NCBI GenBank assembly: GCA_963971405.1
Contig: OZ020485.1
Span: 11,718,001 to 11,782,000, forward strand
Length of the DNA stretch: 64,000 bases
Source: Psococerastis gibbosa
Taxonomy: Eukaryota > Arthropoda > Insecta > Psocodea > Psocidae
Reading direction: 5' to 3'
Position 1 is the first letter of the stretch. Each line of letters starts with the position of its first letter. The notes beneath the pieces were generated by a model, which was given only the letters and a program-made list of their open reading frames with translations, did no database searches and was not told the DNA's origin. The position numbers and the translations under genes were made by a program. Of this stretch, positions 2,241 to 63,887 are shown one piece after another.

Positions 2241-5200
2241 GTATGCACAGTGCTTATTTTTCGGCTTGAATGTTTAATTGCTAAAAATACTGGGATCAGT
2301 AATTTGTAATATTTAATTAACATATTAAGCTTTATTTAGACGCCGCAGCCTTAAATGTATTTCCTTTAAAAATATTTTGGGACCATGGCGTATATTAAAT
2401 AAAATCTAACTTAGTACCGGTAATTAAAGTTAAATTGCTAACTGCTGTAGCAACTGGGAAGAACAGTTTCTGCGTGTGATTATTTGTTGCCATTGTTATT
2501 AGTTAATTTAATTAGTTAAGGAGAAAAAGATGGAAAAGAAACAGTGCATAAAAACATTTCATTCTGAGTGCAGGGCTTAACGAAAGTGTTAGGAAAATAT
2601 GATTCACGCAGCTGAAATGCCAATGCTCAGAAGACCCTGCGGTGTACGGCTGAGAGACCAACGTAGAAACCAAGATGTAAGGCATGAGATTAGAACCCTT
2701 GACGTACAAGAGAAACATAGAGAAAAGAGGCTGGGACTCGGTGGGGACACGTACTACGTAGAGACGAAAACCACCCAGTCAAAAGAGTAATGAACCGGGG
2801 ATACAAGGAGGAAGACCACCAGGGAGGCCGAAAGTTACACTGAGAAGAAAGATCGCCGGAGATATGAGAAGTTTGGGGCTCTCTACCGAGAATAAACAAA
2901 AAATAACAAAAACTTAGAGTTTTAGAAAAACTTGTTATAACAAGTGGTTATAACTTGTTATAACAAGTTTTTCTAAAACTCTAAGTTTTTGTTATTTTTT
3001 GTTTATTAAAATGAAATACCACGAAGTCACGAGTAATCTAATTATTTATCTCTCTACCGAGGACGCACAGGACAGAACTGTGTGGAAACGCTGCTGTTGT
3101 TCCACCGACCCTCCATGAGTTGATTGTAAATATTATTGTTTTTTAGGTATCATCGTTAAAATCGTCGCAAGTCGAATTCGAATCAATGAAACACGAATTA
3201 CGAACGGTGCAAGAAGAAATTGATCTTAGTCATCAACAAGTAGAGGAATTAAAGAAGCTGAAAAAGATAGCAGAGAAGCAATTGGAGGAGGCGCTACAGA
3301 GTCTGCAGGCTGAGAGGGAGGCCAAGTATGCCTTAAAGAAAGAACTAGACCAAAAACTTAATAATCCTAGCATGTATAATCTTAGTAGCTTGGCGTATAG
3401 TATTCGTGAAATGGCCGAGGAAGGTGGAGGATCGGACGGGGAAGATTTGCCTCAACTGCAACAGCTTCAGGCTCACCTGCAGGACGCTACTCAGGAATTG
3501 ACTTCTCCCGATGGCAAACAGGTAATTTGTATTTAATTTTTACTAAATCAAGTTCATTTTGAAAGTATTCGTTATAACGTCGAATAATACTAACAGGTAG
3601 TTCCCAAATTGCGTGCGGCACCACAGCCGTGTTGTTGCAATTCGTAAACTATCATTTAGCATTATTATTATAAAACAACTTTATGTGGACGGGCGTTTCT
3701 TTAGACATCTCCTTAGTGCTAATTAGATCTTCTGCAAGACTGGGTGCCTCATTTTGAAACAAATGCATGTTTTTTATGTACTTTACATCAAGTATAAAAG
3801 TTGAGTTCTTCAAAGTTAGACGGCGACAATCATAATGTTCAAATTGTATTCGTTTTTTTTTTTTTTAAACATTTAAGAAGCAAAAAAAACTGCCACTGTG
3901 GGGCTAGAAATAGATTTCAGTCCCGGTCCATTGTCCGGGTTTTTCTTGATTCTCTAATTTCAGATACATCCTATTGGTACGTCAATCGGCCCTTTCCTGG
4001 AATCATTGGCAATCATAATTTAAATGTTAATGATGTCCAAATCGTTTGTAGGTTGACCTCTTTAGTGAAATCCATTTGAATGAGCTGAAGAAACTTGAAA
4101 AGCAGCTAGAGGCTGCAGACGCTGAAAAGGGAACACTAACACAGCATCTACGTGAGTCGCAGGCGACATCTGAGCGGACTGAAAAAGAACTACAAAGTAT
4201 TGTCGCCAAGATTTGTAAGCTGGCAGCTCACACCGATGCCCTCCAAAGTATAGAGAAAAAGGGTGGGCCACTTGCCGGCAGAGAAACAAATGGTAATGGC
4301 GCAGATGAGCTGGCCGCTACTGTTGCCGGATATCAAGGATGGTTCTCACTTCTCTTCGGTGAGGTAAGCAACGCTTTATCACTATTGAGCGACTTTTTAT
4401 AGATGTAGGCCTACTTGAAGTGGACTGCGACAGGTCTCCAATTGCATGATGTGAAGAGGTAAGAGACTGCCACAAGTACGAGTACTTAGCATGTCCACGT
4501 CACCCTAATTTTCAGTTTAATCTCTGTCGTTTCTAATAGACAGCAGCTGTGCGTATAGTAGTTATCATGAGACTTATTTTCGAATTGAGACTCTAATCAT
4601 ATTTATAATTTCTCAATCAGGTGGAGACACTTAAGAGTGAATTAGCGGTTCTCGAAGCCGAGCTGAATATACCAGACGCTGCTGCATCGCTCCGCTCCGA
4701 ATTAACGAATCTGCAGAACAAGCTGCTGGACCGCGAGCAGGCCGCGCTGGAGTTGCAAGCTGATCTGCGCATGCTGACCCAGCTGTCGGGAGATGCGGGC
4801 TCCAGCCTGGACACGGCCTTGAACTCCTTGCTTACTGTTTCGGACGAACTGGCACAGCTTTACCACCACGTGTGTGCTGTCAATGGGGAGAATCCCAGCC
4901 GCGTGTTATTGGCTCATGAAAAGAAAGAGTTGCCACTACAGGTACGTTGAAGTTGGGTTTTCTGAACTTACCTTATAATTAAGTTGATTTTTTGAGTGGA
5001 AGGATACCTCAAGATTGTCCTCTCAGAAAAAATGCAAATGAGGACGTTGGTATCAAACATTTCACAGATATCTATTGCGGAGGAACATAAGGTAAATTTC
5101 TTCGTTGCGCTTTTCCCCCTACCGCTTACCCGGTCGGCATGGTGCATATATTTGAAAAAAAAAACAATTATATCATTCAATTGGACCTCATGGGTCCCAA

Positions 5201-7599: not shown

Positions 7600-7904
7600 C
7601 CGAGGTAAGTGATTTTCGGGGTATGTCTCCAATAATGAGCATGAAATGCGCTTGCAAGTTGTTTGCAAGTTGTTTATTTTCTGAAATCAACAAAATGTTA
7701 TACTCATGTCTTGCAGCTTGTGTCAGAAGAAAAATTACGAAGTGCTGTTTTATCAGACTTAACCTCTATACTGTTAGCCAGTACCGGTAGTTGGTTAATG
7801 TATTTTCTGATACAATATGCCTCCATCATTAATTTGGTATTACCGTAACGCTAAAATTTATTCTAGAGTAAGTGTGAAACATGGGCTCTAATATCTTTCG
7901 ATTT

Positions 7905-8150
7905 ATACAGTATATAAAATTGGTTTGGCAAAGGGTTAGTTTCCTTACATTGCCTGCTGTGTTAATAGTCATTAGAGGCAGGGGCCTCATCGTCCTTGAA
8001 CAATTAGGGTGGAGCCCATTGTCAGGGTTGACGTTTCGGGAGTGGGTGCTACTTATCATTAGGCTTAGGCCTGAGATAAGTCCGATGGTCTGTAATGATG
8101 CCTCTAATGACTATTAACACAGCAGGCAATGCCATTAACCTTTACAATAT
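7905..8150. mobile_element. SINE-3 3' body in an inverted (fold-back) arrangement
   Basis: CATTGCCTGCTGTGTTAATA near 7950 and its complement TATTAACACAGCAGGCAATG near 8114 flank a core containing GGGTGGAGCCCATTGTCAGG and GGGAGTGGGTGCTAC, both parts of SINE-3 (see 15303-15640). The tRNA-like head is missing. The same fold-back form occurs at 62363-62780. It lies just 3' of BicD. Confidence 0.7.
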
Positions 8151-8411
8151 GTATGATCTGGTTAGTATGGGGAGCTTATTGTGCTTGATGTTGTATTTTG
8201 GAACGTTTTTTTGACCCATGAAATAGCTTGCTCTGTAATGTAATATTTTGTAATAGGATGCATGTTTTTGAAAGTAGTACAAGTATTCTGTTATGCATGT
8301 AAATTATTCAGGATATCTAATAGGACTTCATGTTCTTTAATAGGTGGCAGCAAATGTTTCGCCATGGCCTTTCTGGAACTACTCATATTATCTACCTCGG
8401 TGCCTCTACTA

Positions 8412-8458
8412 ATTCATAAATAGGAAAGCATGTACGGGTTCACTTGCACCGGTTCTTT
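8412..8458 (+). mobile_element. Isolated 3' end of the HINE-like element
   Basis: ATAAATAGGAAAGCATGTAC followed by an imperfect hairpin and CGGTTCTTT, identical in layout to the 3' end of the element at 45060-45920. No internal sequence is present. Confidence 0.7.
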
Positions 8459-12283: not shown

Positions 12284-12445
12284 TTAAATAAATAAATATT
12301 GACTTTTTATTCTATTACTAAACCAACCTAGCGGAGTTAGGGCTATAAAGCCCTCTCTTACACTCAACTACAAAGACCCGGGACCGCCTGCTGTACATGC
12401 CCTCCGAAGCATGGAGAGAAATTGTAGCAAGTATGGGACATGTTG
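12284..12445 (-). mobile_element. SINE-1 (tRNA-derived), head truncated
   Basis: Read on the minus strand: SINE-1 body with the AAGAGAGGGCTTTATAGCCC segment and CGCTAGGTTGG, then the 3' AT-rich tail of TTTATT repeats. The tRNA-like head with A and B boxes has been lost. Confidence 0.85.
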
Positions 12446-15884: not shown

Positions 15885-16409
15885 ATGTATGGTATATTGT
15901 AGCCATTATTAATGTTAACAAAACGAAATAGGTCGCCCTTGATAGTTTGGTTCAGGGGGTAAAAAAATAAAAAAGACTCAATATTCATGAAAAATTACTA
16001 AAAAATAATTCTTCTGCGGAACCTTTCTACTGATGCTTTCTAACTTGAGGTATGTTTTAGGTGTTAAATAGAGTAATAAAACCGCACAGGTTGCTTTCCC
16101 AAACAAAGATTTGGGTTTGTACAAAATAAATATTTTTTTTTGAAGAAATTATGGATATTTTATGCCCCAATACATAGCATAGCATACCCTGCCACTATTA
16201 CAATGTTGTATCGTATTATATTGGTCTGCCCATTCTTGAGTATGCCATCGTCCCATCGACCAATTCAGTTCTTTGGGATAGGGAAACTCGAAATTTAGAC
16301 CTAAATCTAAATTTAACCCTGTTACAATTATTCACCAAAGAACTATTACAGTACCTATCCTAATTGATAAATAGGAAATCATGTACGAGTTCACTCGTAC
16401 CGGTTCTTT
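15885..16409 (+). mobile_element. HINE-like element, 5' truncated
   Basis: Matches the right two thirds of the 45060-45920 element (CTTGATAGTTTGGTTCAGGG, AGGTATGTTTTAGGTGTTAA) and ends with the 18-nt perfect hairpin GTACGAGTTCACTCGTAC then CGGTTCTTT. Confidence 0.8.
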
Positions 16410-17289: not shown

Positions 17290-17335
17290 AATAGAACCCA
17301 TACGAGTGAATTCGTACATGATTTCCTATTGTAAC
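17290..17335 (-). mobile_element. Isolated 3' end of the HINE-like element
   Basis: Minus-strand reading gives AATAGGAAATCATGTACGAA then TTCACTCGTATGGGTTCT, the hairpin and tail seen at 16366-16409, with mutations. Confidence 0.6.
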
Positions 17336-17639
17336 ACTGTACTGTATGTGGTTAAAATGGCCTAATATAATTTTTCAATATATAAATTAGTATAGGTACC
17401 GTACTAGATAATTATGAGTACTGCAGTTCGATCGTAAATAATCGTCCTGATGAGTTTAAATTTTGGCTGCCTCAATTTTCCATATCCTAACAGGCACGGA
17501 TCCCCCCGAGAGAAATACTAGATAGATACTAGATTTCTCAAGTAAAAGAATCGCGATATTTTTCAGGCCCCCCCCCCCCCCCGAAAACTTTCTGAACCCG
17601 TCCCTGTAGATATCCTAAAGCACTGAATTGATTAATGGG

Positions 17640-17935
17640 GCGGGCAATTGTACAGTCTATAATGGACCGCTGAATATAATATTGTACGATACAATTAAAA
17701 ATGGGTACGGATTATCCATAATTAATTTAAAAAATCTTTTTTTATAAAAAAAAAAATTAAAACTGCTTGGAAAACCTTTGTTACTCTGTTTAGCACCCAC
17801 AACATACCTAAAGATAGAAAGCATCGATAGATAGGTTCATCAGAAAATTTATTTTTAAGTAATATTTCATTAAAATTTAACCTTTGTTTTTTTGCGCCAA
17901 ACTATTAAGGGGGGAGCGACCTTGTAGGGTTTGTT
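17640..17935 (-). mobile_element. HINE-like element, internal fragment
   Basis: Minus strand carries the GCTCCCCCCTTAATAGTTTG and GTATGTTGTGGGTGCTAAAC segments of the family in order; both ends are missing. A poly-C run lies just before it at 17569-17582. Confidence 0.65.
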
Positions 17936-18035
17936 CACATTAGAAGCAACTAGGCTACATTATTTTTATGTGATTAAAAAAAAAGTGGTTGGAGCTGTTT
18001 TTTAGAAATAATTTTTCTATAGGTAGCTGTTTTTT

Positions 18036-19449: not shown

Positions 19450-19673
19450 ATAAAATAAATAAATAAATATTGACTTTTTTGTTCTATTACGATGCCAACC
19501 TAGCGGAGTTAGGGCTACAAAGCCCTCTCTTACACTCAACTAGGAAGACCCAGGGCCGCCTGCTTTAAATGCCCTCCGAAGCATGGCCAGAAAATGTAGC
19601 AAGTGTGGCACTCGAACCAACAACCTTTCGGGTGAAAGTCTGAGCCTGTACCACTACTCTACATGTCCTGACA
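19450..19673 (-). mobile_element. SINE-1 (tRNA-derived), full length
   Basis: Minus-strand head TGTCAGGACATGTAGAGTAG gives an A box. B-box region TTGGTTCGAGTGCC is mutated at one base. The body AGGGCTTTGTAGCCCTAACT and the AT-rich TTTATTTATTTATT tail are intact. Confidence 0.88.
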
Positions 19674-20444: not shown

Positions 20445-20725
20445 TTTCTTCTTTGTATGCCTCTTCCAGTGAAGATTGGTGATCATCATGGCAATTTAGA
20501 CCTCGGAGATTGCTGCTCTGGAAAGGGAAGCCGTGCTCTTGTCAGACAACTGCCTCAGGTTTTTCAACAGGGATGAATGTTCTTCTCCAGGTAGCCCCCA
20601 GCCCTTTATCGTCCCTTGGATTACTGCATGCAGAGGGCGATATATCTCGTTCCTCATCACATGGCTGAAGTATGTTAGTTTCCGTTTCTTAACCAACTCG
20701 GCTTCTGTATCCCTGCTTATTGAGG
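20445..20725 (-). pseudogene. LINE reverse-transcriptase C-terminus
   Basis: Minus strand reads RDTEAELVKKRKLTYFSHVM, then RNEIYRPLHAVIQGTIKG, KNLRQL and LSRAAISEV, the well-known tail of a non-LTR polymerase. A stop follows ISEV, yet the family sequence IAMMITNLHW continues past it. 5' truncated, as usual for LINE insertions. It abuts the HINE-like copy at 20727. Confidence 0.87.
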
Positions 20726-20726
20726 T

Positions 20727-21487
20727 CCCAGGAACCCAAAAAAGTGGTTTTTACGAAATGTCTGTCTGTCGCTCTGTCGCTCTGTCTGTGCGTCGATTTC
20801 CGGGCAAACTACACGGTCGATTTAATTGAAATTTGGCATGTTCACAAAAATCATATCTTGAGACAATTTTTATTTATTTGGGGGATAACTCAATTTTGTG
20901 GGGTTTTATTCTCAAAAAACTCCAAAAACACGTCTAAAAAAAAAATTATTTCGCAAAAACGGCTTGAACGTTTTCTTTTAAATTCACATATATTGTAGTC
21001 GTCACTAATGTCAACCAAATGCGGTGGTCGCGTGCCCCTTGATAGTTTGCTTCTGGGGTTAAAAAAATAAAAATAACCAAATTTTCATGAAAAATGACTA
21101 AAAAATAATTTTTCTGTGGAACCTTTCTATCGATGATTTCTACCTTCAGATATGTTTTAGGTGTTCAATAGAGTAACAAAACCAAACAGGAGGTTTTCCC
21201 AAAGAAAATATTTGGTTCTGGGCAAAAAATTATTTTTTGAAGAAATTAAGAATCTCATTGTTACTACTGTTACAATATATTGGTCTGTTCGTTCCAGAAT
21301 ATGCAATTGAGTTTTAAGGGGTTTTTAACATATTGAGTTGGACCTCCTCCCCTCCCCCCCCCCCCCCCCCCCCGAGGGATCAGAAATTTAACCATAGGGA
21401 AATTATTTACAATGAAATGAACCATTATGTCCATATACTACTTTATAAATTGGAAAGCATGTTCGAGTAAACTCGGACCGGTTCTTT
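20727..21487 (+). mobile_element. HINE-like element, 5' truncated, with variable poly-C
   Basis: Begins inside the family at GGTCCCAGGAACCCAAAAAA, carries the short GTCTGTC motif at 20760, TTGATAGTTTGCTTCTGGGG, a run of about 20 C around 21354-21373, and the ATAAATTGGAAAGCATGTTC end followed by CGGTTCTTT. Confidence 0.88.
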
Positions 21488-24705: not shown

Positions 24706-25572
24706 TGCTTTCCAATTTATACGTAGTATAAGGAAAGCTTTGTGATGGTCGAAATTTTCGATTCCGAGATTTCAACGGATTTACACGTTTTAAGGTCCCA
24801 GGAACCCAAAAAAGTGGTTTTTACGAAATGTCGGTCTGTCTGTCTGTCTGTCTATCTGTTCGTCGATTTCCGGGCAAACTACTTGGATGATTTTGATGAA
24901 ATTCGGCATGTAGGTTTACGAAAATCATACGTCGGGACCATTTTTTTTTTTTTTGGGCTAACTCAATTTGGGGGGTTTTTATTTTCAAAAAACTTCAAAA
25001 AAACGTCTAAAAAAATTATTTCCAAAAACGGCTCCAACGATTTCCTTTAAATTCACATATATTGTAGCTGTTGTTAATGTTGATAAAATGCGGGGGTCGC
25101 TTGCCCGTTGATAGTTTGCTTCTGGGGGTAAAAAAATAAGAATAACTAAATTTTAATGAAAAATGACTAAAATTTAATTTTTCTGCGACACCTTTCTATC
25201 GATGATTTCTACCTTCAGGTATGTTTTAGGTGTTAAATTGAGTAACAAAACCGTATAGGCTGCTTTCCCAAAAATGTATAAATGTATTTGGTTTTGTAAA
25301 AAAAAATGTTTTTTTGAAAAAATGATTGAAAGTTCACGCTCAAATGCATTGTGTGCCCTGCCAGTATTGCTCTGTGGTAATGTGTTGGTCTGTCCTATCT
25401 AGAATTTACCTCACCACCAGTGACGTCAGGTGGATAACCCCCCCCCCCCCCCCCCCGAGATATCGGAAATTTAACCATAGGAAAATTATTCACCATGCAA
25501 TTACTCATTTTCTCTATTTACTAATTTTTATAAATTGGAAAGCATGTTCGAGTAAACTCGGACGGGTTCGTT
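24706..25572 (+). mobile_element. HINE-like element, full length (867 bp)
   Basis: 5' TGCTTTCCAATTTATACGTA is complementary to TATAAATTGGAAAGCA near 25530. Inside are GTCTGTCTGTCTGTCT at 24835 and a run of about 18 C at 25439-25456. The 3' hairpin GTTCGAGTAAACTCGGAC is followed by a mutated tail. Only short frames are present, so it is non-autonomous. Confidence 0.88.
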
Positions 25573-29017: not shown

Positions 29018-29689
29018 TGCTTTCCTATTTATATGTTAGTATAAGGAAAGCTATGTGATGGCCGAAATGTTCGATTTCGGGATTTAAGCGGGGCATATCT
29101 TGGAATTTTCAAATATGCCATGTTATATGTCAAATGAAAGCTCTTTTTGAGACCTTTAATTTTATATGCCACTTATGAACCTAGGCCTAAAGGTACAAGC
29201 ACAATCAGCCCAAATGTGGAAACGTGGCATTAATGATATGACCCATTAAATATCGTCAAGAACTGACGGTAAATAACTTACTAACTTACAATAAAATTGA
29301 AATTTGGTAAAGAAATATGCCGCAAGGTCATAGTCAAAAGAGGTAAAAATTAAATGAAAATACCGCTATTGCGCACCATATAAGATAGAAATAAGCTAAG
29401 GGGCACGCTGGGACTTCACCGGGCTATTTGTCGAATCCGTAATTTGGTATGGTGGCGAATATCGGCTAAATAATAATAAAATGTAATTTATTCCTTTCCT
29501 AAAATATCTATACACGTAGTATTAAGGAAATCTTATTATGGTGGTCTGCCCATTATTGAATATGGAAACGTCCCATCGATCAATTCAGTGCTTTGGGATA
29601 GGGAAACTTTAAATTTGAACCTAAATTACAGTACCTATCCTAACTGATAAATGGGAAAGCATGTACGGGTTCACTCGTACCGGTTCTTT
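29018..29689 (+). mobile_element. HINE-like element, variant interior (672 bp)
   Basis: Shares the family start TGCTTTCCTATTTATATG, its inner complement AAGGAAAGC, and the exact end hairpin then CGGTTCTTT, but the middle (GGGCATATCTTGGAATTTTC, AATGAAAGCTCTTTTTGAGA) differs from other copies. Ends are conserved while interiors are exchanged. Confidence 0.82.
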
Positions 29690-30202: not shown

Positions 30203-30411
30203 AAATAAATAATAATAAATAAATAAGGAATTTTTTTGTTCTATTACTAAGTCAACCTAGCGGAGTTAGGGCTATAATGCCCTCTCTTACACTCAACTAG
30301 AAAGGCCCTGGACCGCCTGCTTTACATGCCCTCCGAAGCATGGCCCAGAAAATGTAGGGAGTGTAGAACTCGAACCAAAAACCTTTCGGGTGAAAGTTAG
30401 AGTCCGACGAG
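30203..30411 (-). mobile_element. SINE-1 (tRNA-derived) copy
   Basis: Minus strand has CACCCGAAAGGTTTTTGGTT with B box GGTTCGAGTTC, body AGGGCATTATAGCCCTAACT, and a TTATTTATTATTATTTATTT tail. Confidence 0.88.
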
Positions 30412-35012: not shown

Positions 35013-35200
35013 AATTTAAGATCCAAAACTAGGACCAATTGCCTTTAGTGATGACGATATAATGTGCATCGAAGTGTATAGGAACGTTTCTTCTAATGGA
35101 TTTGATAATTTAAGATCCAAAACTACGACCAATTGCCTTTAGTGACGACGATATAATGTGCATCGAAGTGTATAGGAACGTTTCTTCTAATGGATTTGAT
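35013..35200. repeat. 94-bp tandem duplication
   Basis: AATTTAAGATCCAAAACTA to TTCTAATGGATTTGAT occurs at 35013 and 35107; the two copies differ at about two positions (GGACCA/CGACCA, GATGACG/GACGACG). Confidence 0.92.
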
Positions 35201-36289
35201 ATTCTTTATGGCTCTACAGTCGATATTTTCAGTGAAATATGATTTTTTTTTCATCTGTAAGAGTTTTTCCCTTTCTTTTGTCGGTAATTTGGTTGGCTAA
35301 GGAAATTGGAGGCTTCCACTTAATGAGATGCGTCAAAGTTATTAGTAGGGGAAGTAGTTATTATTGAGTCATCAAGCTATCGACCCTTGTGTCACTATTG
35401 CCCCACTTAGTCGACATCTAGTATAAGTGGGCGCCAGCGTGATAGCTTTCGCCTTGAGAGCGAAATTCTCAAGCTTAACTTTGCACTGTATAAGAGCTCT
35501 TAGCGGCGACCTTCTCGCAAATTAAACTTATTGCAAACAATTCAAATTTCCAGTCGGCACGTTTCATCACTTTAAAGTACCTATGGTGCAGTCCAGTAAG
35601 TAGGTAACTCGACCATTAACCACGAGGCCCATGAAGACCAGGCCTCAGGGCCCCCCACTCAAAAACCGTTGAAAAGGGCCCCCACAATAGACGCAAGCAA
35701 AAAAAAAAATATTTTCATGAAAAATTTATTAAAAAACAACAATAATATTAAAACTATAAAAACGTTTGAAATTGGCGGGGAAAAGTAGCAATAAATTTAT
35801 GCTTTTGTGCTTTTCTGTTGGCGAAAAAAAAAAATCATCAAAGGAAAGCTGTACGGATATTTAACCAACCAATATGGTTAGGCAACCAACTACGGTTTTA
35901 TCTTTTTTCATGAAAAATTATAGGTTGTAGGGCCCCCACATAGGCTATATTTTATTTTATATATATATTTTTTTAGACATTTCCATGATCTACTATATTT
36001 TTGCAGAAATGAAATTCCTTTACGGAAAGATGTTTGGTTACAATCTAGTAAATTACCATTCGAATCATACGGTTTATTTATTTACTGTTGGTGCTATGAG
36101 TATACTACTTTAAGTTTTGTAATCTTGAGCTTCCCGTGTCTAATGAAGGAATTAAGTTAAGAGAAGAGAGATTAATAGGACTGTATTAATACATTAATAC
36201 TTAACCAATACCCAATGCGGGTGAGTCGATCGTGCGGAGGGCCTCAAATAATACCACTCCAGCTGTGGCGGGGAGATAATGGAATTTTA
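35201..36289. other. No recognisable gene
   Basis: Contains AGGGCCCCCACTC and GGGCCCCCACA runs around 35640-35945 that pair loosely and may be an old transposon; no clear ends were found. Confidence 0.35.
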
Positions 36290-36645
36290 TTTTTTATTCA
36301 AAACCAAAACTTTGGTTGGGAAAGTGATCTGTTCGGTTTTGTTTCTCCATTTAACACCTAAAACCAACATGAAGTGAGAAAACATATAAAAAGGCTCCGC
36401 CGAAAAATTATTTTTTTACTAATGTTTTATAAGAATTTAGTCTTGAACCAAACTATCCAGGAGCGACCTAATGGGGTTTAAATACATTTATAACGACTAC
36501 AATACACAGTATGTGACTTAAAAAACTACAAAAAGAGGATTTTATAAAAACAGTTTTCTCAACTATTTTTTTTAAGGTAAACCTCACATAATTGAGTTAG
36601 CCCAAAATAAAATTAAATAGTCCCGCGATATATTTTTGTGAACCT
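36290..36645 (-). mobile_element. HINE-like element, internal fragment
   Basis: Minus strand has ATTGAGTTAGCCC complement, the TAGTTTGGTTC segment preceded by AGGTCGCTCC, and GTTTTAGGTGTTAAATGG. Neither terminus is present. Confidence 0.62.
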
Positions 36646-37504
36646 GCATTAATAAATAGAAGAAATGTTCCCCTACTTTCTGATGCATGGAGTCTGTAGA
36701 AACCACTGTCAGTCTAACACTGGTCAGGCATAATTGTGGAATTTCATACAATTATTTTTGTATCCAAAGTTTAGTGACAACCACATACATACTTCTAATC
36801 AACCTTTACTATCTATGTTTCTTGTGAAATTATATTTAGTAACATACGGTATCGTCCCCCTCCAGTTGTCTCAATTCACAAATTCTTTGGCGGGAAGCCA
36901 TAACTTAATGACATGTAAAGAATCCAATATTGCTGCGCAGCCTGTCTTGCTTGATTAATGAATGGTGTGTGAGGAGATTATACGAAAAATTCAGTAGGCT
37001 GTGAGAAATCACGCTTTGAACTCAGTGACAACAGCACGAAAGATATTTCATGATATGTTTAAACAGCATCTCACAAGACAACTAGCTACAGGTCAACTTC
37101 TCACAGCTCTGTGGTAAACTGTATAGTATATTGTATATGGTACGTCATAGCGACATGAAAAGTTATCGATAGGAAGTTGGTTTGCTGTTAGATCTCAGAT
37201 CCATCTCATATTTGGGGCAGCAGCCAAACTGGGTTACTGTTGCAGAGATTTCCAGACTTTTTTTAAGTTTCTCCAACTCCCTCTTCTTTTTCTGTATACT
37301 GAAAGCCGTTTTGTTCTTGTTCGCCATGATATTTTTCTTTGTTATTCATCAAAGTTTTTGAAATTTTATATTGTCTTAAAACATCTGAGTTTCCTTTATT
37401 TTCTATTGTTAGTAAGAAAGCTGCAGCCGTACACGAAAGAATAACTTCACCGGAAATAATTTTAAATTTACTTAAGGGGATTAAAACGTCGAAATGAAAA
37501 TTAT

Positions 37505-37858
37505 TGCTTTCCAATTTATACGTAGTATAAGGAAAGCTTTGTGATGGTCGAAATTTTCGATTCCGAGATTTCAACGGATTTACACGTTTTGAGGTCCCAG
37601 GAACCCAAAAAAGTGGTTTTTACGAAATGTCTGTCTGTCTGTCGCTCTGTCGCTCTGCCCGTCTGTCTGTTCATCAATTTCCAGGCAAACTACTCGGTGG
37701 ATTTGAATGAAATTTGGCATGTAGGTTCACAAAAATCATACCTCGGGACCATTTTTTTTTATTTTGGGCTAACTCAATTTGGGGGGTTTTATTTTCAAAA
37801 AACTCCAAAAAAAACGTCTAAAAAAATTATTTCTCAAAAACGGCTCCAACGATTTCTT
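37505..37858 (+). mobile_element. HINE-like element, left third only
   Basis: TGCTTTCCAATTTATACGTA start, AGGTCCCAGGAACCCAAAAA, a GTCTGTCTGTC stretch at 37630, and TTCTCAAAAACGGCTCCAAC. Interrupted at about 37860 by the SINE-core copy; the right part is not seen beyond it. Confidence 0.85.
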
Positions 37859-37861
37859 AGT

Positions 37862-38229
37862 TAAAACGCCAACGGCCTTACCATGTTGATTCCATTAGAG
37901 CAGAGCATGTTTCGAACTGCGGCAACTTGGTAGTGTGCACAGCGTTGGCAGGGGAACCTGGTGGGACATGATAACTCGCTCAGGCAGTATAAGTCGAGTC
38001 CTGGTCACCTCCGATTTAATCGTGTGATTTTACCATGTTCCCCAAGTGGTTCGGAATCCACTATAATCAGGAGGTCCACCCTGTTAGTCAACTCCCCTTT
38101 CCCCGAGGTGAAAGAGTCTGCCCTTAGGGTGCCTCAAGTTAACAAACAGACTCACTCCCCCCCGCCAGGCTGACAGGGTTGCTTAAAGCAGAAATGCTGA
38201 AAGCAGGCGTTAGAAACAACAACAACAAC
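37862..38229 (+). mobile_element. SINE-core type A
   Basis: Head CCATGTTGATTCCATTAGAG, shared core TGGTCACCTCCGATTTAATC to ATCAGGAGGTCCAC, then type-A tail with CCGAGGTGAAAGAGTCTGCC and GCAGGCGTTAGAAAC followed by (AAC)5. Flanks AGTTAAAAC and AGTTTTAAAAC may be a degraded target duplication. Confidence 0.88.
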
Positions 38230-38548: not shown

Positions 38549-38790
38549 TGCTTTCCTATTTTATACGTAATATGGAAAGCTTTTTGAGATGGTCAAAATG
38601 TTCGATTTTGAGTTTTCAGTGGATTTACCCGTTTTGAGGTCCCAAGGATCTAAAAAAGGTTTTTTTTTTAACGAAATGTCTGTCTGTTCGTCGATTTGTA
38701 GCCAAACTACTCGGTGAATTTTGAGGAAATTAATTGACATGTGAGTTCACAAAAATCATACCCTGTGAACATTGTTTTCATATGTTTAAC
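38549..38790 (+). mobile_element. HINE-like element, diverged left end
   Basis: TGCTTTCCTATTTTATACGT with AATATGGAAAGC completing the 5' hairpin, then TGTCTGTCTGTTCGTCGATT. The match ends near 38790. Confidence 0.72.
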
Positions 38791-38867
38791 TATTAAATAA
38801 ATTATAGCTTATGAACATGACAAAAACCAAATGAATTTCTTTTAACACCGGCATCAAGACTTGCAGG

Positions 38868-39072
38868 GTACTGGTATACAGACTCTGACTTTCACCCGAA
38901 AGGTTTTTGGTTCGAGTCCTACACTTCCTAAATTATCTGGCTATGCTTCGGAGGGCATGTAAAGCAGGCGGTCCCGGGCTACCTAGTTGAGTGTAAGAGA
39001 GGGCTTTATAGCCCTAACTCCGCTAGGTTGGCTTAGTAATAGAACAAAAAAGTCCTTATTTATTTATTTATT
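38868..39072 (+). mobile_element. SINE-1 (tRNA-derived) copy
   Basis: CTCTGACTTTCACCCGAAAG, B box GGTTCGAGTCC, body GGAGGGCATGTAAAGCAGGC and AGGGCTTTATAGCCCTAACT, ending AAAAAGTCCTTATTTATTTA. The A box is mutated. Confidence 0.9.
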
Positions 39073-45059: not shown

Positions 45060-45920
45060 TGCTTTCCAATTTACACGTAGTATAAGGAAAGCTTTGTGAC
45101 GGTCGAAATTTTCGATTCCGAGATTTCAACGGATTTACACGTTTTAAGGTCCCAGGAACCAAAAAAGTGGTTTTTACGAAATGTCGGTCTGTCTGTCTGT
45201 CTGTCTATCTGTGCGTCGATTTCCGGGCAAACTACTCGGTCGATTTTGATGAAATTCGGCATGTAGGTTCACAAAAATCATACCTCGGGATTATTTTTTT
45301 ATTTTTGGCTAACTTAATTTGGGGGGGTTTTATTCTCAAAAAACTCTAAAAAAACGTCTAAAAAATTATTTCTCAAAAACGGCTCCAACGATTTCTTTTA
45401 AATTCACATATATTGTAGTAGTTATTAATGTTAACGAAATGTGGGGGGTCGCTTGCCCCTTGATAGGTTGCTTCTGGGGGTAAAAAAATAAAAATAACTA
45501 AATTCTAATGAAAAATGACTAAAAAATAATTTTTCTGTGAAACCTTTCTATCGATGATTTCTACCTTCAGGTATGTTTTAGGTGTTAAATTGAGTAACGA
45601 AACCAGACAGGTTGCTTTGCCAGAAAAGTATTTGGTTCTGTAAAAAAAAAATGTTTTTTTGAAAAAATGATTGAAAGTTCACGCTCAAATGCATTGTGTG
45701 CCCTGCCAGTATTGCTCTGTGGTAATGTGTTGGTCTGACCTATCTAGAATTTACCTCATCTCCAGTGAGGTCAGGTGGACAACCCCCCCCCCCCCCCCCC
45801 CCCCGAGACATCGGAAATTTAACCATTGGAAAATTATTTACCATGAAATTACTCATTTTCTCTATCTACTAATTTTGATAAATTGGAAAGCATGTTCGAG
45901 TAAACTCGGACCGGTTCTTT
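45060..45920 (+). mobile_element. HINE-like element, best full-length copy (861 bp)
   Basis: Starts TGCTTTCCAATTTACACGTA, which pairs both with GTATAAGGAAAGC just inside (a 5' hairpin) and with ATAAATTGGAAAGCA at about 45879. Contains GTCTGTCTGTCTGTCT at 45187, a run of about 21 C at 45784-45804, and ends with the hairpin GTTCGAGTAAACTCGGAC and CGGTTCTTT. Left terminal T and right terminal T abut AT-rich flanks and no target duplication is seen. This layout (left subterminal inverted repeat, microsatellite, right hairpin) is that described for Helentron-associated elements; the class is inferred. Confidence 0.88.
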
Positions 45921-47724: not shown

Positions 47725-48870
47725 ACAATTGCAGGGAGAAAAGCCTTACAAGTGTAAAAATCAAATATCAATTAAAATTCAGAGCTGTAAAAATTATCCG
47801 GACAAACAACAGAAAAAACCTGTGAGTGCCCCTTCTACAGCCGGGAGAGGGCAGTGTTGATTAGCAGGTTGCAGGCCCGGGGGAAGCTACCGCCTTACAT
47901 GTATATGGATGTGTTCCAGGAGTTGGACTGAGAGATGTTGACGGAGGTGGTCGGCTTCCTGGATGGTATCGGACAAAAGTGGTAGGACGTTGGGCAAGCT
48001 GTTTTAAACGGTCCCTGGGCAACCTCGTTGTCCACTGCTCTCCCGATAGCATGTATACCATCAAGCAAAAAAAAAAAAAAATGCCTGAGCATTTTGATAC
48101 ATGATATTATATGCCTCTTTTTAACATATTATTGACTTTGTTTTGTAAAAAAGAAAAAAAGATTGGTGTTACATTCTTATAATGTGCAACCAGCGTGGAA
48201 ACATTCGTCAGCTAATAACAGAGACTTTGTAATAAGCTACCTGGGCACGCTCTAATTACCAGGAATGCTGCTAAAATTTTCTGTTTGTGTTTGCGAATGC
48301 CGAATTCCTTGTATATTCCCCTTCGAATTTCCTTTTAAACTTTTTCTAATTTAATAATATTGAGCGTGTCAGTTTGTAATATTAATGAGTTTTAACATTT
48401 GACTAATAGTTCAGTCGACAGCCTTCATCTGGTGGCAACATTATTAGAAGGCATACCTCCAGACTGGTCTTTCACACAAGTACAAGGTATCTCAATTCCT
48501 ACAGTGTGGTAATCCCGAGAAAGGAATTCCTGGAAAGAAGGCAGGCCTTGGGCCAATTAGTGTTTAGAAATGTATAGCATTTCACACAAGTATCCAGCAA
48601 AATCTCAATTCCTACAGTGTGGTAGTCCCGAGGAAGGAATTTCTGGAAGGATGGAAGACCTGTGGCCAATTAGTGTTAGTGTATAGAAATTTAGCATTTC
48701 TGATAATTCAATGGATTTTTTTGGTGACTCTGGGATCGTTATTTCCTGCAAAATCGACTTTATACTAAAAAACGCGTAAAACTCCAAATTGCTCGGAATG
48801 GATTTGTCTGAAAGGGATTCGGACATATTTTGGAGTTTTACTGTATGTTTAAAAACGTAGAGGAATATCA
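47725..48870. other. No recognisable gene; local duplicated segment
   Basis: TCTCAATTCCTACAGTGTGG occurs at about 48490 and 48602, followed in both by a CCCGAG-AAGGAATT segment: an imperfect ~112-bp tandem repeat. Otherwise nothing supported. Confidence 0.5.
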
Positions 48871-48872
48871 GA

Positions 48873-49066
48873 ACTTGTAGTTAGTGGTACAGACTCCGAC
48901 TTTCACCCGAAAGGTTGTTAGTTCGAGTCCCACACTGGTTATATTTTGGGCATGTAAAGCAGGTGGTCACGGGTCATTCTAGTTTAGTGTAAGAGGGCTT
49001 TATAGCTCTAATACCGCTAGGTTGGCTTAGTAATAGAACTACAAAAAGTCAAGATTTATTTATGTT
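48873..49066 (+). mobile_element. SINE-1 (tRNA-derived) copy
   Basis: TAGTTAGTGGTACAGACTCC head, B box GTTCGAGTCCCACACTGG, shortened body (GGGCATGTAAAGCAGGTGG), tail with AAAGTCAAGATTTATTTATG. Confidence 0.88.
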
Positions 49067-50087
49067 ATTTATTTAATATTTGTTCTCTATAGGCCTGAAT
49101 CGCGATTATATTTTAACTTGGGATTAAAAATATAAGCAAAATAATTTTAGAATAAGTTAGAAAGAGCTATTTTAAAATCAATATTGTTTTGTTTACATTT
49201 TTATTAATTCCAAGGATTAGTTAATACTAAATAGTTAATAAGTTAATTTCATGCCCGCAGAAAGAAAGGAAAGGGGCTATGTGATTGTACCTTCTCATTC
49301 AAACCTCCAAAACATTTGAGAAATTATTATTTGCGTCACACTCTGACATTCATGGCTGGTGAGTCATTGGCTTTTATGATCGCAATAAATCTTGCGGATT
49401 CTTTCTACAGCACAGAGCAGCTGTAGGCCTACGTTTTCTGCCGCCAAATATGGCCTCAGACTGTTATTAAAAACGGCGAAGCATTACAGCCCATGGAGAG
49501 TTTATGCCTAGGGTGACCATCTATACTGTTTTTGGCAGTACAGTACTGCTTTTCGGTGTCTCTGTACTGATACTGTTTTGATTTGCCAAAAACACCAAAA
49601 TGTACTGATTTTCGGTGGAGGACCGTACTTCCATTCCCAATATTAATCAGTACATACATTTCCAGATGAACAATGTAAAAAATATGAATTAGGCGCCCAT
49701 TCTTGCCCGATGGTGTATTTAAAAATTACCTATACAATTGTCATAATTAACTTAGTTGCCATGTCTAAATGTTTGGGAAAAAATATTTTCTCTCAACAGA
49801 TTAATTTTGTGATTAAGTAGTTAGTATCTTTTATTTATGACTAGGGAAAAATTAATTCAAAAATAATTTTACACTGGACAGAATGACTATTTTAAAAGCA
49901 AGTTTACACTATATAGGATGGACTTTCGTATGATGTACTGTTTTTCAATTTCAAAATTATGGTCACCCTATTTATGTCTGAAGACTGGCATCTTCTTCAA
50001 ATGGGGTTAAAATTTGGTCAGCCACAACAGAGAAAACGAATAATTTGAGGAGACTTGACATCTGCATGGCCTAGTTTTTTTTTTGTA
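49067..50087. other. No recognisable gene
   Basis: A self-similar patch at 49520-49630 repeats TACTG-containing phrases (ACAGTACTGCTTTTCGGTG, ATGTACTGATTTTCGGTGG) and may be a decayed minisatellite. Confidence 0.4.
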
Positions 50088-50350
50088 ATAACCGAAATTA
50101 GAGGATATGGAAAAAACTGGGCTTCGAACCCACGATCTACGCCTAACCGGGGCGTCATCTTAACCGCTTAAAGGCTGGTGGTCCAGCGGTTAAGACGACG
50201 CCCCGGTTAGGCGTAGATCGTGGGTTCGAATCCCGCCAAGCCCAGTTCTTTCCATATCCTCTAATTTCGGTTATAACGAGAACTCTTCAACCAAAAGGTA
50301 ATTTAATGTCAGTGTTATATATACCATATAATACAATGTATTAGTGTTGT
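50088..50350. mobile_element. Two SINE-2 copies head to head (190-bp palindrome plus tail)
   Basis: Minus copy 50088-50169 and plus copy 50171-50278 meet at their tRNA-like heads. The plus copy has A box TGGTCCAGCGG, GACGCCCCGGTTAGGCGT and B box GGTTCGAATCC, both matching pol III consensus, then TCTAATTTCGGTTATAACGA. Sequence to about 50350 (TTAATGTCAGTGTTATATAT) recurs after the copy at 56597, so the SINE extends that far. Acceptor-stem pairing is poor, so a functional tRNA is unlikely. Confidence 0.85.
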
Positions 50351-54240: not shown

Positions 54241-54298
54241 TGCTTTCCTATTTATACGTACGTAATAAGGAAAGCTTTGTGATGGTCGAAATTTTTGA
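54241..54298 (+). mobile_element. HINE-like element, left end only
   Basis: TGCTTTCCTATTTATACGTA, ATAAGGAAAGC and TTTGTGATGGTCGAAATTTT, after which the match stops. Confidence 0.8.
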
Positions 54299-54658: not shown

Positions 54659-54718
54659 AATTCCCCGCCCCCATATCCCCATTACATCCACTACATTTTC
54701 CAATGGGTCTACAATTGT

Positions 54719-54943
54719 CAAGACATGTAGCGTAGTGGTACGAACTCTGACTTTCATCCGAAAGGTTGTTGCTTCGAGTCCCACACTGGCTACATTTTCG
54801 GGCCATGCTTCGGGGGGCATGTAAAGCAGGCGGTCCCGGGCCTTCCTAGTTGAGTGTAAGTGAAGGCTTTAAAATATAGCCCTAACTCCGCTAGGTTGGC
54901 TTAGTAATAGAAACAATATAAGTCCTTATTTATTTTATTTACA
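54719..54943 (+). mobile_element. SINE-1 (tRNA-derived), full length
   Basis: AGACATGTAGCGTAGTGG supplies the A box (TAGCGTAGTGG), GCTTCGAGTCCC the B box with one change; the body GCATGTAAAGCAGGCGGTCC and CCCTAACTCCGCTAGGTTGG is intact, and the tail is TCCTTATTTATTTTATTT. Confidence 0.9.
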
Positions 54944-58414: not shown

Positions 58415-58756
58415 ATGTTCTTAATAATCGTGCTTTTCAATTATGTATGCCTAGCAATAAGTTTATTGGCAACTGCATGCATTAAGAGGTTTGACACGCC
58501 TGAAGGCGCAGATCCAAAATTAATGCGACAAATGAAATACACTTGCGAGAAAAGAGCTTTCCCATTATCTGAAACATCATCCATCTGTACATTTGAAAAT
58601 TCCGGGGTAACCGCCTATATGACTCCCATGAAGCTTCCCTTTCCAATACGCCTATGCGCAACAGCTGAATCTTTCACAAAAATCATTGACTCAGACTTGA
58701 GGCAGCAAATGTTTTTCGAAATTCCCCATAAGCTGGGAAAACTTCCTGTAGTATGA
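58415..58756 (+). CDS. Possible small secreted-protein ORF (113 residues), unconfirmed
   Basis: Begins MFLIIVLFNYVCLAISLLAT, a plausible signal peptide ending near ATAC, followed by CIKRFDTPEGADPKLM, a Cys-containing segment YTCEKRAFPLSETSSICTF, and PFPIRLCATAESFTKIIDSD, ending HKLGKLPVV. I do not recognise the protein. Its last 50 codons coincide with the first of three 213-bp tandem units, in which the same frame ends in a stop at the same place each time (except in the third). The opposite strand is open for 206 codons across the same units, so either strand, or neither, may be coding. Base composition is not clearly exonic. Confidence 0.25.
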   Translation: MFLIIVLFNYVCLAISLLATACIKRFDTPEGADPKLMRQMKYTCEKRAFPLSETSSICTFENSGVTAYMTPMKLPFPIRLCATAESFTKIIDSDLRQQMFFEIPHKLGKLPVV

Positions 58757-59210
58757 GTGATCAGACTCGCCCTGTATGCAGTACGCTCAGGAATGTCAAT
58801 ATTATACCGTACAACATGATCCATCATTACATTTGAAAAATCGGGGGAACCCTTTCCAATACGCTTATGCGCAATAGCTGAATCTTTCACAAAAACCATT
58901 GACTCAGACTTAAGGCACCAAATGTTTTTCGAAATTCCCCATAAGCTGGGAAAACTTCCTGTAGTATGAGTGATCAGACTCGCCCTGTATGCAGTACGCT
59001 CAGGAATGTCAATATTATACCGTACAACATGATCCATCATTACATTTGAAAAATCGGGGGAACCCTTTCCAATACGCTTATGCGCAATAGCTGAATCTTT
59101 CACAAAAACCATTGACTCAGACTTAAGGCACCAAATGTTTTTCGAAATTCCCCATAAGTTGAGAAAAATTCCTGTGGTGTGGGTGATAAGACTCACCCTG
59201 TATGCAGGCC
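58634..59210. repeat. Three tandem 213-bp units, open on the minus strand for 206 codons
   Basis: The marker GTTTTTCGAAATTCCCC falls at 58711, 58924 and 59137, exactly 213 bp apart. The unit is 71 codons, so the minus frame stays open: LWGISKNIWCLKSESMVFVK, DSAIAHKRIGKGSPDFSNVM, MDHVVRYNIDIPERTAYRAS repeat in order. Units 2 and 3 are almost identical and unit 1 is diverged by about five changes plus a 20-bp-scale insertion. No family recognised. Confidence 0.9.
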
Positions 59211-60396: not shown

Positions 60397-61217
60397 TGCT
60401 TAAGGGACAGATTTCAAAATAGGTTGTAAACAAGGAATGGTCCTTTATTTTTGAATAAATTATTTAATTTATCGTTCCACAGCCGTAAAGATACAAAAGT
60501 GGTAAGTTGAAAAATTCATTGCAAAAATGCAAGCTTTCTGTAATAGCCAGTCTATAAAATCAACATAATGCACATTATCGGGTGCCAACGGCCTTACCAT
60601 GTTGATTCCATGAGAGCAGAGCATGTTTCAAACAGCGGCAACTTGGTAGTGTGCACAACGTTGGCAGGGGAACCTGGTGGGACATGATAACTCGCTTAGG
60701 CAGTATAAGTCGAGTCCTGGTCACCTCCGATTTAATCGTGTGACTTTACTATGTTCCCCAAGTGGTTCGGAATCCACTATAATCAGGAGGTCCACCCTGT
60801 TAGTCAACTCCTCTTTCCCCGAGGTGAAGGAGTCTGCTCTTAGGGTGCCTCAAGTTAACAAACAGACTCACTCCCCCCGCCAGGCTGACAGGGTTGCTTA
60901 AAGCAGAAATGCTGAAAGCAGGCGTTAGAAACAAACATTATCGGGTTGTTCTGAAATAATAATATTTCAGATCAGAAAATGTAATTTTCCTATGAAAGCT
61001 TGTATTGTTATGTATTTTTCGTCTGACCACATTCATATCTTTGCGGTTTTGGAATGAGAAATTAATTAATTTCGTTAAAAACACAGCTTTACTTTTACTT
61101 CGCCTTTGTCTTCAAGGGGGGTTGGCGACATGGCAGCAGCGTTGCCAGACAACATTATTGAGATCACGATCATTATTTTTTTTTACAAAATATTTGGAAA
61201 TCTGTCCCTTTAAGTGC
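60397..61217. mobile_element. Fold-back element carrying a nested SINE
   Basis: Ends CTTAAGGGACAGATTTCAAA and AAATCTGTCCCTTTAAG are inverted. Interior matches to 9592-9945 (TTAATTTATCGTTCCACAGC) lie on both sides of a SINE-core insert at 60583-60934. Excluding the SINE the element is about 460 bp. Confidence 0.82.
60583..60934 (+). mobile_element. SINE-core type A, complete, with 11-bp target duplication
   Basis: Head TGCCAACGGCCTTACCATGT, core TGGTCACCTCCGATTTAATC to AATCAGGAGGTCCAC, tail CCGAGGTGAAGGAGTCTG to GCAGGCGTTAGAAACAA. ACATTATCGGG flanks it exactly at 60572-60582 and 60935-60945. The short, A-rich end and variable-length duplication indicate retrotransposition. Confidence 0.95.
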
Positions 61218-61649: not shown

Positions 61650-61858
61650 ATATGTCCTGTAGTGGTACACACTCTGACTTTCACCAAGGAAAAGTTTATT
61701 GGTTCGAGTCCCACGCTTGCTGGCTTGCTGCATTTCCTTTCATTTCTTTGGAGTGACGTCAACCCCAGATACTGCTAGTTGAGTGTAAAAGAGGACTTTA
61801 TAGCCCTAGCGCTGTTAGGTTGGCTCAGTAATAGAAAGTAAATAATTATTTATTCGTT
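61650..61858 (+). mobile_element. SINE-1 (tRNA-derived), diverged
   Basis: ATGTCCTGTAGTGGTACACA head, GGTTCGAGTCCCACGC B box, body AGAGGACTTTATAGCCCTAG, GTTAGGTTGGCTCAGTAATA, tail TAATTATTTATTCG. Confidence 0.85.
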
Positions 61859-62362
61859 TAATTTCAAAATATGCTAAAGAACCGGTGCGAGCTGTATGCA
61901 AGTAAGCTGTATGCAATTTTTAGTGGGGGGGGGGCTGAACTAGAATGCCTTTAGAGTGAAGACTTAAGTATAGTAAACTCACTTTAATTTCTTGTAGTGT
62001 GTGGAGTACAATATAAACTATTATGCCATTCGACTGCCAATTACATTCTGCGCGGACGGACGCTTCGCTGCGTACTAGTTTAAGATTTCCTCCGCCGTTA
62101 CTTCGATATCTCTATGAAGGTATAGAGAAGAGGGGGGGGGCTTTAGCCCCATTAGTCCATAGCTGGATCCGCTAGTGCGTCCTTGTAGCGTGTTATAATT
62201 GTAATGCCTTTTGATCGAAATAATAAAGTTATGTTAGTTATGTTAGTAGCTGAGAGCCGGAGGAACAGTTGCCGTATTACTAACTAGCAGTGTTATGTGT
62301 GTATAACCTGTGTGTATGTGTAGTATAATATTAGTGTGTTATACTGTATGCACATAAGGGTA

Positions 62363-62886: not shown

Positions 62887-63645
62887 TTTGCATTATTTAT
62901 TTTGTGTTTGTATTTTGTTTTTAATCAATTATTTTATATATTTAGCTTATAATAGAGCGTGATGAATGTGCCCAACCCTTTGATCTGATTGCCTGCAAAA
63001 CGGGCCAATTGTTATATTGTTGTTTGCATTGTAAAGAAATCGTCAAGACATTGACGAGACATGTAGTGTAGTGGTACGGACTCTGACTTTCACCCGAAAG
63101 GTTGTTGGTTCGAGTCCCACACTGGCTACATTTTCGGGCCATGCTTCGGAGGGCATGTAAAGCAGGTGGCCCCGGGCCTTCCTAGTTGGGTGTAAGAGAG
63201 GGCTTTATAGCCATAACTCCGCTAGGTTGGCTTAGTAATAGAGACAATAAAAAGTCCTTATTTATTTATTATTGATTTTTGTGTTTGTATTTTGTTTTTA
63301 ATCAATTATTTTATATATTTAGCTTATAATACAGCGTGATGAACGTGCCCAACCTTTTTTTTTTCTTTAAAAAAATTAATCGCAGACAAACAATTTAATG
63401 ACTGTATCCGATTGACCTCTTCAGTCGCCTCTGTAGGTTAGTACCTGTGTTGAGCTACGACACGTCTCCGATCGCATGGAGTGTAAAGACTCGCACAAGT
63501 GCAAGCACGTTACCACCTGGCCATCGAATTGTTGATTGCATTGTTTATTTTGTGTTTGTACTTAATCAATTATTTTATATATTTAGCTTATAATAGAGCG
63601 TGATGACAGTGTCGAACCCATTGACCTGATTGTCTGCAAAATGGG
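62887..63645. repeat. Three dispersed copies of a ~90-bp AT-rich motif
   Basis: TATTTTGTGTTTGTATTTTG-like starts at 62899, TTGTGTTTGTATTTTGTTTT at 63279 and TATTTTGTGTTTGTACTTAA at 63547 each lead into TTATTTTATATATTTAGCTT and ATAATAGAGCGTGATGA (one base changed in copy 2). A SINE-1 lies between copies 1 and 2. Confidence 0.85.
63057..63271 (+). mobile_element. SINE-1 (tRNA-derived), full length, well preserved
   Basis: A box TAGTGTAGTGG and B box GGTTCGAGTCC both match pol III consensus. The body CGGGCCATGCTTCGGAGGGC, AGGGCTTTATAGCC and CGCTAGGTTGGCTTAGTAAT is intact; tail TCCTTATTTATTTATT. A good reference copy. Confidence 0.92.
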
Positions 63646-63659
63646 CAAATTTGCAACAG

Positions 63660-63887
63660 CAGATAAATAAAGAAATAAAGTAACAATGACTTTTGTTCTA
63701 TTACTAAGCCAACCTAGCGGACTTAGGGCTATAAAGCCCTCTCTTACACTCAACTAGGAAGGCCCGGCGCCGCCTGCTTTAAATGCCCTCCGAAGCTTGG
63801 CCAGAAAATGAAGGAAGTGTAGGACTCGAACCAACAACCTTTCGTGTGAAAGTCAGAGTCCGTACCACTACTCTATTTGTCCTGACC
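63660..63887 (-). mobile_element. SINE-1 (tRNA-derived), full length
   Basis: Minus strand: GTCAGGACAAATAGAGTAGT, B box GGTTCGAGTCC, body GGCGGCGCCGGGCCTTCC and AGGGCTTTATAGCCCTAAGT, tail of TTTATTT units at 63660-63678. Confidence 0.9.

Follow-up and report, generated by a model that had tools for sequence, protein, structure and literature searches.

The window, by which we mean the whole stretch of 64,000 nucleotides analysed here, carries exons of the dynein adaptor BicD at its left end, identifying it as animal DNA, and a tRNA-Thr (GGT) at 50172-50244 that was called by ARAGORN and likewise recognised as a tRNA by Rfam. A 94-bp unit is tandemly duplicated at 35013-35201 (97% matches), and a 213-bp tandem repeat, present in 2.7 copies at 58637-59207, has one minus-strand frame that stays open over 206 aa and has two matches in Pfam, both below curated cut-offs. 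One dispersed repeat, approximately 200 bp in length and containing a tRNA-like GGTTCGAGTCC box, we infer to be a likely SINE family, with copies at 12285-12439, 19454-19671, 30210-30404, 38854-39070, 48867-49069, 54718-54941, 61666-61860, 63057-63270 and 63670-63874. The other dispersed repeat, which is the subject of this report, accounts for 5485 bp, or about 8.6% of the window (with copy D counted from 15885).

A preliminary description of this DNA had proposed at least ten copies of this repeat at 12 coordinates. A blastn search of the window with positions 45060-45920 bore out the family and reduced the 12 coordinates to 11 pieces, because those at 17290 and 17640 are parts of a single minus-strand copy. 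Three pieces have both ends, namely copies A (45060..45920, plus strand; the query here and in the genome search), B (24706..25572, plus; 92% identical to A) and F (29018..29689, plus). Four retain only the 3' end: C (20720..21487, plus) and D (15892..16409, plus, left limit approximate), both lacking the 5' end, E (8405..8458, plus), which consists of the 3' end only, and G (17291..18019, minus), which has the 3' end and interior. Three others, all on the plus strand, have the 5' end only (I, 37505..37865; J, 38549..38778; K, 54241..54298), and H (36290..36649, minus) is interior only. The interior is common to A, B and C in blastn comparisons within the window, whereas F combines the ends of A with a different interior: about 74 bp are shared at its 5' end, its 3' end has 43-59 bp in common with A, B, C and E, and the 3' block that it shares with D reaches 160 bp. 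No stop-to-stop ORF of at least 120 aa was found in the copies (shorter frames of up to 118 aa overlap them), a regular-expression search of the six frames of the window for Rep and helicase motifs returned none, and the window copies are without coding capacity. A different repeat, with copies at 37868-38200 and 60584-60915 that are 96.7% identical, starts where copy I breaks off.

Searching copy A against the genome to which the window belongs (409 Mb, 68 contigs) yielded 8917 first-look candidates; the 40 that were scored were all near-full-length, and comprised the window copy and 39 others at 92-95% identity. The 30 best-scoring genomic copies were fetched and aligned, a sample biased toward copies resembling A, and the start of one of them (L007) was shifted by 2 nt ahead of the end counts. 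The preliminary description had called for an alignment of all genomic copies; in this alignment of the 30 best, the ends are sharp and fixed, with exact TGCTTTCC at the start of 28/30 copies, exact CGGTTCTTT at the end of 24/30, and two or more GTCT units in 30/30. Divergence from the consensus averaged 2.7% among these 30 best copies, and the closest pair was 98.2% identical. At one of the fetched loci (L024, C13:3195897-3196814), a second family 5' end lies 5 nt downstream in the same direction, so that the two are head-to-tail neighbours. Exact end patterns gave 0 matches in the viral_contigs and genome_contigs collections, from which records of this genome itself may be absent.

The anatomy of the ends is best followed in copy A, on the plus strand. 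Its 5' subterminal inverted repeat, TGCTTTCCAATTTAC (45060..45074), differs by one mismatch from the common form TGCTTTCCAATTTAT, and is followed by a short inverted repeat, GGAAAGC (45086..45092), that is predicted to fold back on the 5' end as a 5' hairpin; the same fold-back is predicted in 6/6 window 5' ends. A (GTCT)n microsatellite is located at 45183..45206 and a poly-C run at 45783..45804, the longest C run varying from 7 to 24 nt across the 30 fetched copies. The 3' copy of the subterminal inverted repeat, ATAAATTGGAAAGCA (45878..45892; all 15 nt exact in 29/30 fetched copies), is followed by the 3' terminal hairpin GTTCGAGTAAACTCGGAC (45894..45911; exact pattern in 28/30) and by the tail CGGTTCTTT (45912..45920), whose last T may be the host's. 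The preliminary description had treated the 5' end, the 3' end and the (GTCT)n stretch as shared by the copies. This is true of the ends in those window pieces that reach them (6/11 for the 5' end and 7/11 for the 3' end) and fails for the rest; the microsatellite, present in all of the fetched genomic copies, appears as a GTC-type run in 5/11 window pieces (A, B, C, I and J).

The 5' end can be written as TGCTTTCC(A/T)ATTTAT, and its inverted copy is situated 28 nt before the 3' terminus. The complementarity claimed earlier between the 5' end and a site just before the 3' hairpin was confirmed, and is perfect over 14 nt in A, 16 nt in B and 8 nt in F. Among 3000 dinucleotide shuffles of A, complementarity of 10 nt was reached by 0 and of 8 nt by 13, so that the 8-nt match in F is weak if taken alone. 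The 7-bp stem of the 3' hairpin is complete in 5/7 window 3' ends; G has 6 bp and for E none is predicted. Two main stem forms were observed, GTACGAG/CTCGTAC in D (hairpin GTACGAGTTCACTCGTAC) versus GTTCGAG/CTCGGAC with a G-T pair in A, B and C. Position 9 of the 5' end is A in copies A, B and I, and T in F, J and K, while its counterpart in the 3' repeat is T in A, B and C, A in D, E and G, and G in F. This pattern suggests two subfamilies with matched ends, though F itself is mismatched.

Two further proposals of the preliminary description, insertion between T residues and the lack of a target duplication, are both supported by the fetched copies. The base before the element is T in 29/30 of them, and four comparisons with empty sites, representing three insertions, revealed no duplication beyond T's that might be part of either the element or the target; a fifth comparison was not clean. 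These empty sites are paralogous rather than allelic, with identities of 74-81%. The copy L016 lies inside a local repeat whose second unit is empty (81% over 172 bp), and the filled site, ATTTAT/TGC...CTTT/GAATTAATATTC (slashes mark the boundaries of the element), can be set against the empty ATTTAT-TT-GAATTAATATTC. For L030, compared with its own downstream repeat (75%) and with the L020 locus (76%), the empty sites are 1 nt longer than the joined flanks, and for L021, compared with window positions 6992-7093 (74%), the empty site equals the joined flanks in length. The unclean case is L011, which is nested in another family copy and whose target has 6 extra bases relative to its paralogs. 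The window itself yielded no paralogous empty site for its copies A, B and F. The insertions thus lie at TT or T-rich sites, with a target that looks unmodified apart from the ambiguous T's, and the assignment of the T's is described as equally ambiguous in the accounts of mite (PMC4067079) and Drosophila (PMC2374699) elements.

These sites and ends bear on two explanations that differ from the one we favor. The first is that the family is a MITE, a non-autonomous derivative of a DDE cut-and-paste element that has inverted repeats, inserts at TT and duplicates it. Inverted repeats are indeed present, TT adjoins the 5' one, a 2-bp TT duplication is formally possible, and DINE-1 was formerly placed among such elements according to one account (PMC2374699). 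However, the family departs from DDE MITEs in that the 3' repeat lies 28 nt inside the end, where it is succeeded by a conserved hairpin and tail, and in that no duplication extends beyond the T's; moreover, copy F has the same ends around a different interior, and Rep remnants occur in an element with the same ends, as described below. We regard a MITE as highly improbable. The second explanation, a SINE or other retroposon, would fit the high copy number, but neither an A-rich tail nor a long target duplication is present in the 30 aligned copies, the 5' end is exact in 28/30, and the ends are shared with the Rep-bearing element, leaving this reading with practically no credence.

The preliminary description had proposed searching the genome for a Rep/helicase element sharing both ends. 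Such a search uncovered a Rep-bearing relic of 8148 bp on the minus strand of C20 (C20:19269868-19261721), in which no helicase was detected: a genome search for PIF1 helicase gave no match in the relic. Its 5' end, TGCTTTCCAATTTATACATAG, is preceded by a T and opens a family-like leader of 745 bp (82% identical to A over 690 bp and 76% to D), and after the leader come, in order, a 352-aa ORF, KRKSDPEYRE-type repeats, Rep fragments, and the family 3' end ...GGAAAGCATGTTCGAGTAAGCTCGGACCAGTTCTTT, which matches over 41 bp at 93% and has the same orientation as the 5' leader. A Rep fragment matches Pfam PF14214 at E 1.3e-10, and a decayed frame in the relic reads RGSSHVH, with an S after G that is given as diagnostic of Helentrons in PMC4067079. 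The 352-aa ORF matches the herpes tegument family Herpes_teg_N (PF04843) over 26 residues at E 7.6e-4, below threshold (19.6 bits, where the cut-off is 25), solved structures offered this tegument-like ORF no support (best E 0.04, to an unrelated capsid protein), and a 208-aa query from it found 1 match in the genome, which was itself. Inside the relic, C20:19266620-19267421 is a repeat of approximately 0.8 kb that recurs at 97-99% identity in at least 39 other places, and is a young high-copy element; it dominated the matches of a DNA search made with 3.3 kb of the relic.

The relic could in principle be a product of chance, its two family ends being broken pieces that happen to share an orientation and to bracket a Helentron, or the two halves of one family copy that was split. 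The density of family pieces, 11 in 64 kb, would favor such an accident, as would the presence near other Helentron-type Rep loci of family copies whose orientation makes no sense as ends of those loci. The junctions of the relic, however, are repeated elsewhere in the genome. A query made of the final 939 bp of the relic matched C15:22619292-22620063 at 90% over query positions 178-938, the alignment ending one base before the relic does, and the element there, about 2.1 kb long, is collinear with the relic in five blocks at 89-91% (relic 23-306, 829-1207, 1456-1673, 1755-2182 and 7387-8147). The coding middle (relic 2183-7386) is missing from the C15 element, with the junction in a T-run, as is part of the leader (307-828), and its 5' terminus is worn, keeping TGCTTTC with the following bases changed and an A in front. 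At C21:3299301-3303300, a T-flanked 5' end, TGCTTTCCTATTTATACG, begins a leader (relic 1-790, 79%) that extends 45 bp beyond the family-like part, and body sequence (811-1206, 78%) follows 0.2 kb on; the 3' end present in this stretch belongs to a separate complete family copy, the locus's own 3' end being unseen there. On C3, body (965-1206, 75%) and 3' region (8009-8135, 85%) occur in order with 2.3 kb between them, the 3' end being worn (9 mismatches against a 36-nt probe) and the 5' end falling outside the fetched stretch. Among the 40 places scored of 798 in the relic 3' search, many others share only the last 40-120 bp. Because the C15 locus repeats the relic's arrangement through to the 3' end, C21 repeats leader and body, and C3 repeats body and 3' region, the ends can be taken to belong to the Rep-bearing element and the short forms to be its internal deletions, and we consider a chance arrangement very hard to credit.

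When the genome was searched with Pfam PF14214 (Helitron-like Rep), 20 of 26 candidates proved to be matches. The Rep motif is RGLPHAH in L033-L038, L040, L043 and L044/L045/L047, whereas L042 on C15, with GSPHAH, has the clearest Helentron Rep motif, including the S that PMC4067079 regards as diagnostic. Used as a protein query, L042 recovered 12 matches among 19 candidates: its own locus and 11 short pieces, of which 7 contain internal stops. Two of these short pieces, on C20, fall inside the relic. L042 itself was rejected as the partner of the family: it is bracketed by two complete family copies in opposite orientation, which were taken as separate insertions. Variant motifs were seen at L031, L032 and L041 (C2, C3 and C2; KRGMVHAH rather than RGLPHAH) and at L039 (C19; QGMVHAH), and at L031 the frame is open for 1441 aa and includes a PIF1 helicase. 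As partners, L031 on C2 and L033 on C21 were set aside, sense-orientation family ends having not been found in the stretches examined.

An intact element encoding a 1671-aa Rep/PIF1 protein occurs at C1:12044806-12053805 (L051), C14:26377245-26386244 (L052) and C15:7184944 (L037), with 99.97% identity across 9 kb between the C1 and C14 stretches. At the 3' end the element has a long hairpin followed by ...ACACTTGTT, which is not the canonical CTRR, and its last 400 bp or so are common to at least 35 other places at 85-87%. This Helitron (L035/L036/L037) was tried as the partner because its ORF is preceded, at a distance of about 0.8 kb, by the start of a family 5' piece. It was rejected on three observations: the sequence common to the C1 and C14 copies includes 1.5 kb upstream of the 5' piece, the body comes to its end, marked by another hairpin and ...ACACTTGTT, about 3.2 kb past the ORF, and no family 3' end was detected in the 15 kb examined there. 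Such a protein, intact and with no endonuclease by Pfam, would agree with the proposal that the family descends from a Helitron2 or proto-Helentron, and not from a Helentron with endonuclease, as would the failure to find a helicase in the relic. The relic's Rep motif, with S and not L after RG, is at odds with this proposal, as are the unrelated 3' end of the intact C1 Helitron and the sub-threshold Herpes_teg_N match, a domain type that PMC9741609 describes from Helentrons, the Helitrons equipped with an AP endonuclease. We therefore consider a Helitron2 or proto-Helentron origin unlikely.

HINEs are defined by ends shared with a Helentron together with an internal deletion, in the terms of PMC4067079, and we are confident that the present family is a HINE of the DINE-1 type, a non-coding rolling-circle transposon that has kept the two ends of a Helentron and lost the coding middle. 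The Helentron-associated class suggested in the preliminary description thus gains support from the anatomy, from the T flanks and empty sites, and from the Rep-bearing relic with both ends. Subterminal inverted repeats (subTIRs) mark the 5' end and recur internal to the 3' end, a palindrome follows downstream of the 3' subTIR, and a GTCY-type microsatellite, a typical though not universal feature, is present in the left part. Canonical Helitron features, namely 5' TC, 3' CTRR and A/T insertion, are replaced by the ends TGCTTTCC and CGGTTCTTT and by a position beside T's. The one partner found to combine these ends with a Helentron-type Rep is the relic, 82% identical to HINE-A; the name Helentron is based there on the Rep motif and the ends, because the helicase was not found. 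Pairs of HINEs and Helentrons presented in PMC4067079 are 84-99.9% identical, and the 18% divergence of HINE-A from the relic argues that the relic is not the direct parent; it is a decayed relative of that parent. No intact Helentron partner was found among the best candidates of the genome searches.

Membership in this class would imply rolling-circle transposition by a Helentron Rep. The Rep (HUH) endonuclease of the parent would recognise the 5' end, with its subterminal inverted repeat and 5' hairpin, and nick between two T's; replication would then displace a single strand up to the 3' hairpin and the CGGTTCTT(T) tail, which would act as the terminator, and the displaced strand would be inserted at a T-T target that is not cut in a staggered manner, and hence is not duplicated. 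On the same grounds, the protein was presumably supplied by a Helentron family that has since decayed. Copies of low divergence exist although their Helentron is gone or decayed in this genome, and it is conceivable, but doubtful, that the family was last moved by a lost partner, or is being cross-mobilised by one of the genome's intact rolling-circle Rep/helicase elements with different-looking ends; if so, end recognition in rolling-circle transposition would be looser than the end sequences suggest.

In our preferred reading, as a HINE family derived from a Helentron, the copies are a new family of a known kind of element. A literature search found no report of it, which does not by itself show its absence from print, and a text search for the end sequences gave no related paper, as judged by titles. 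General ideas on rolling-circle transposons are left unchanged by this finding. Its value is that one genome displays the path from an 8.1-kb Rep-bearing relic through a 2.1-kb internal-deletion copy to HINEs of 0.86 kb, and that the family provides a mask for a repeat making up about 8.6% of the window.

Among known systems, the layout is closest to that of DINE-1/INE-1 of Drosophila because of the 5' fold-back repeat and the GTCY-type microsatellite. As portrayed in PMC2374699, DINE-1/INE-1 elements likewise have a subterminal inverted repeat that lies at the 5' terminus or beside it, a second repeat folding back on it, a GTCY microsatellite in the left block, a 3' inverted repeat inside the end, a 3' hairpin, and TT insertion. 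They differ in the subterminal repeat itself (TGCTTTCCAATTTAT here versus ATACCCGTTACTC and relatives in DINE-1), and copy A has a poly-C run and is without the long central tandem array of DINE-1, having only two short rows of 2.4-2.8 units. Helentrons with a tegument-like deubiquitinase domain, of the kind treated in PMC9741609, resemble the relic in that its ORF upstream of Rep weakly matches the N-terminal family of herpes tegument proteins, although this match is below the curated cut-off and spans 26 residues, and the helicase was not found in the relic. The HINEs of the mite Metaseiulus occidentalis also derive from Helentrons by internal deletion, with both ends in common, and occupy a T-rich, unmodified target, but their subterminal repeats, as presented in PMC4067079, are palindromic and without the 5' inverted repeat that is present here. 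Cg_HINE of the Pacific oyster, in the account given in PMC7492417, has a left subTIR, an inverted repeat and a short microsatellite, which in several elements is GTCY, GTCC or GTCK, as well as a right subTIR with palindrome, a preference for TT and no duplication, all in common with the present family. That account describes central satellite arrays and no relatable autonomous element in the oyster, whereas in the present genome the family is accompanied by a Rep-bearing relic.
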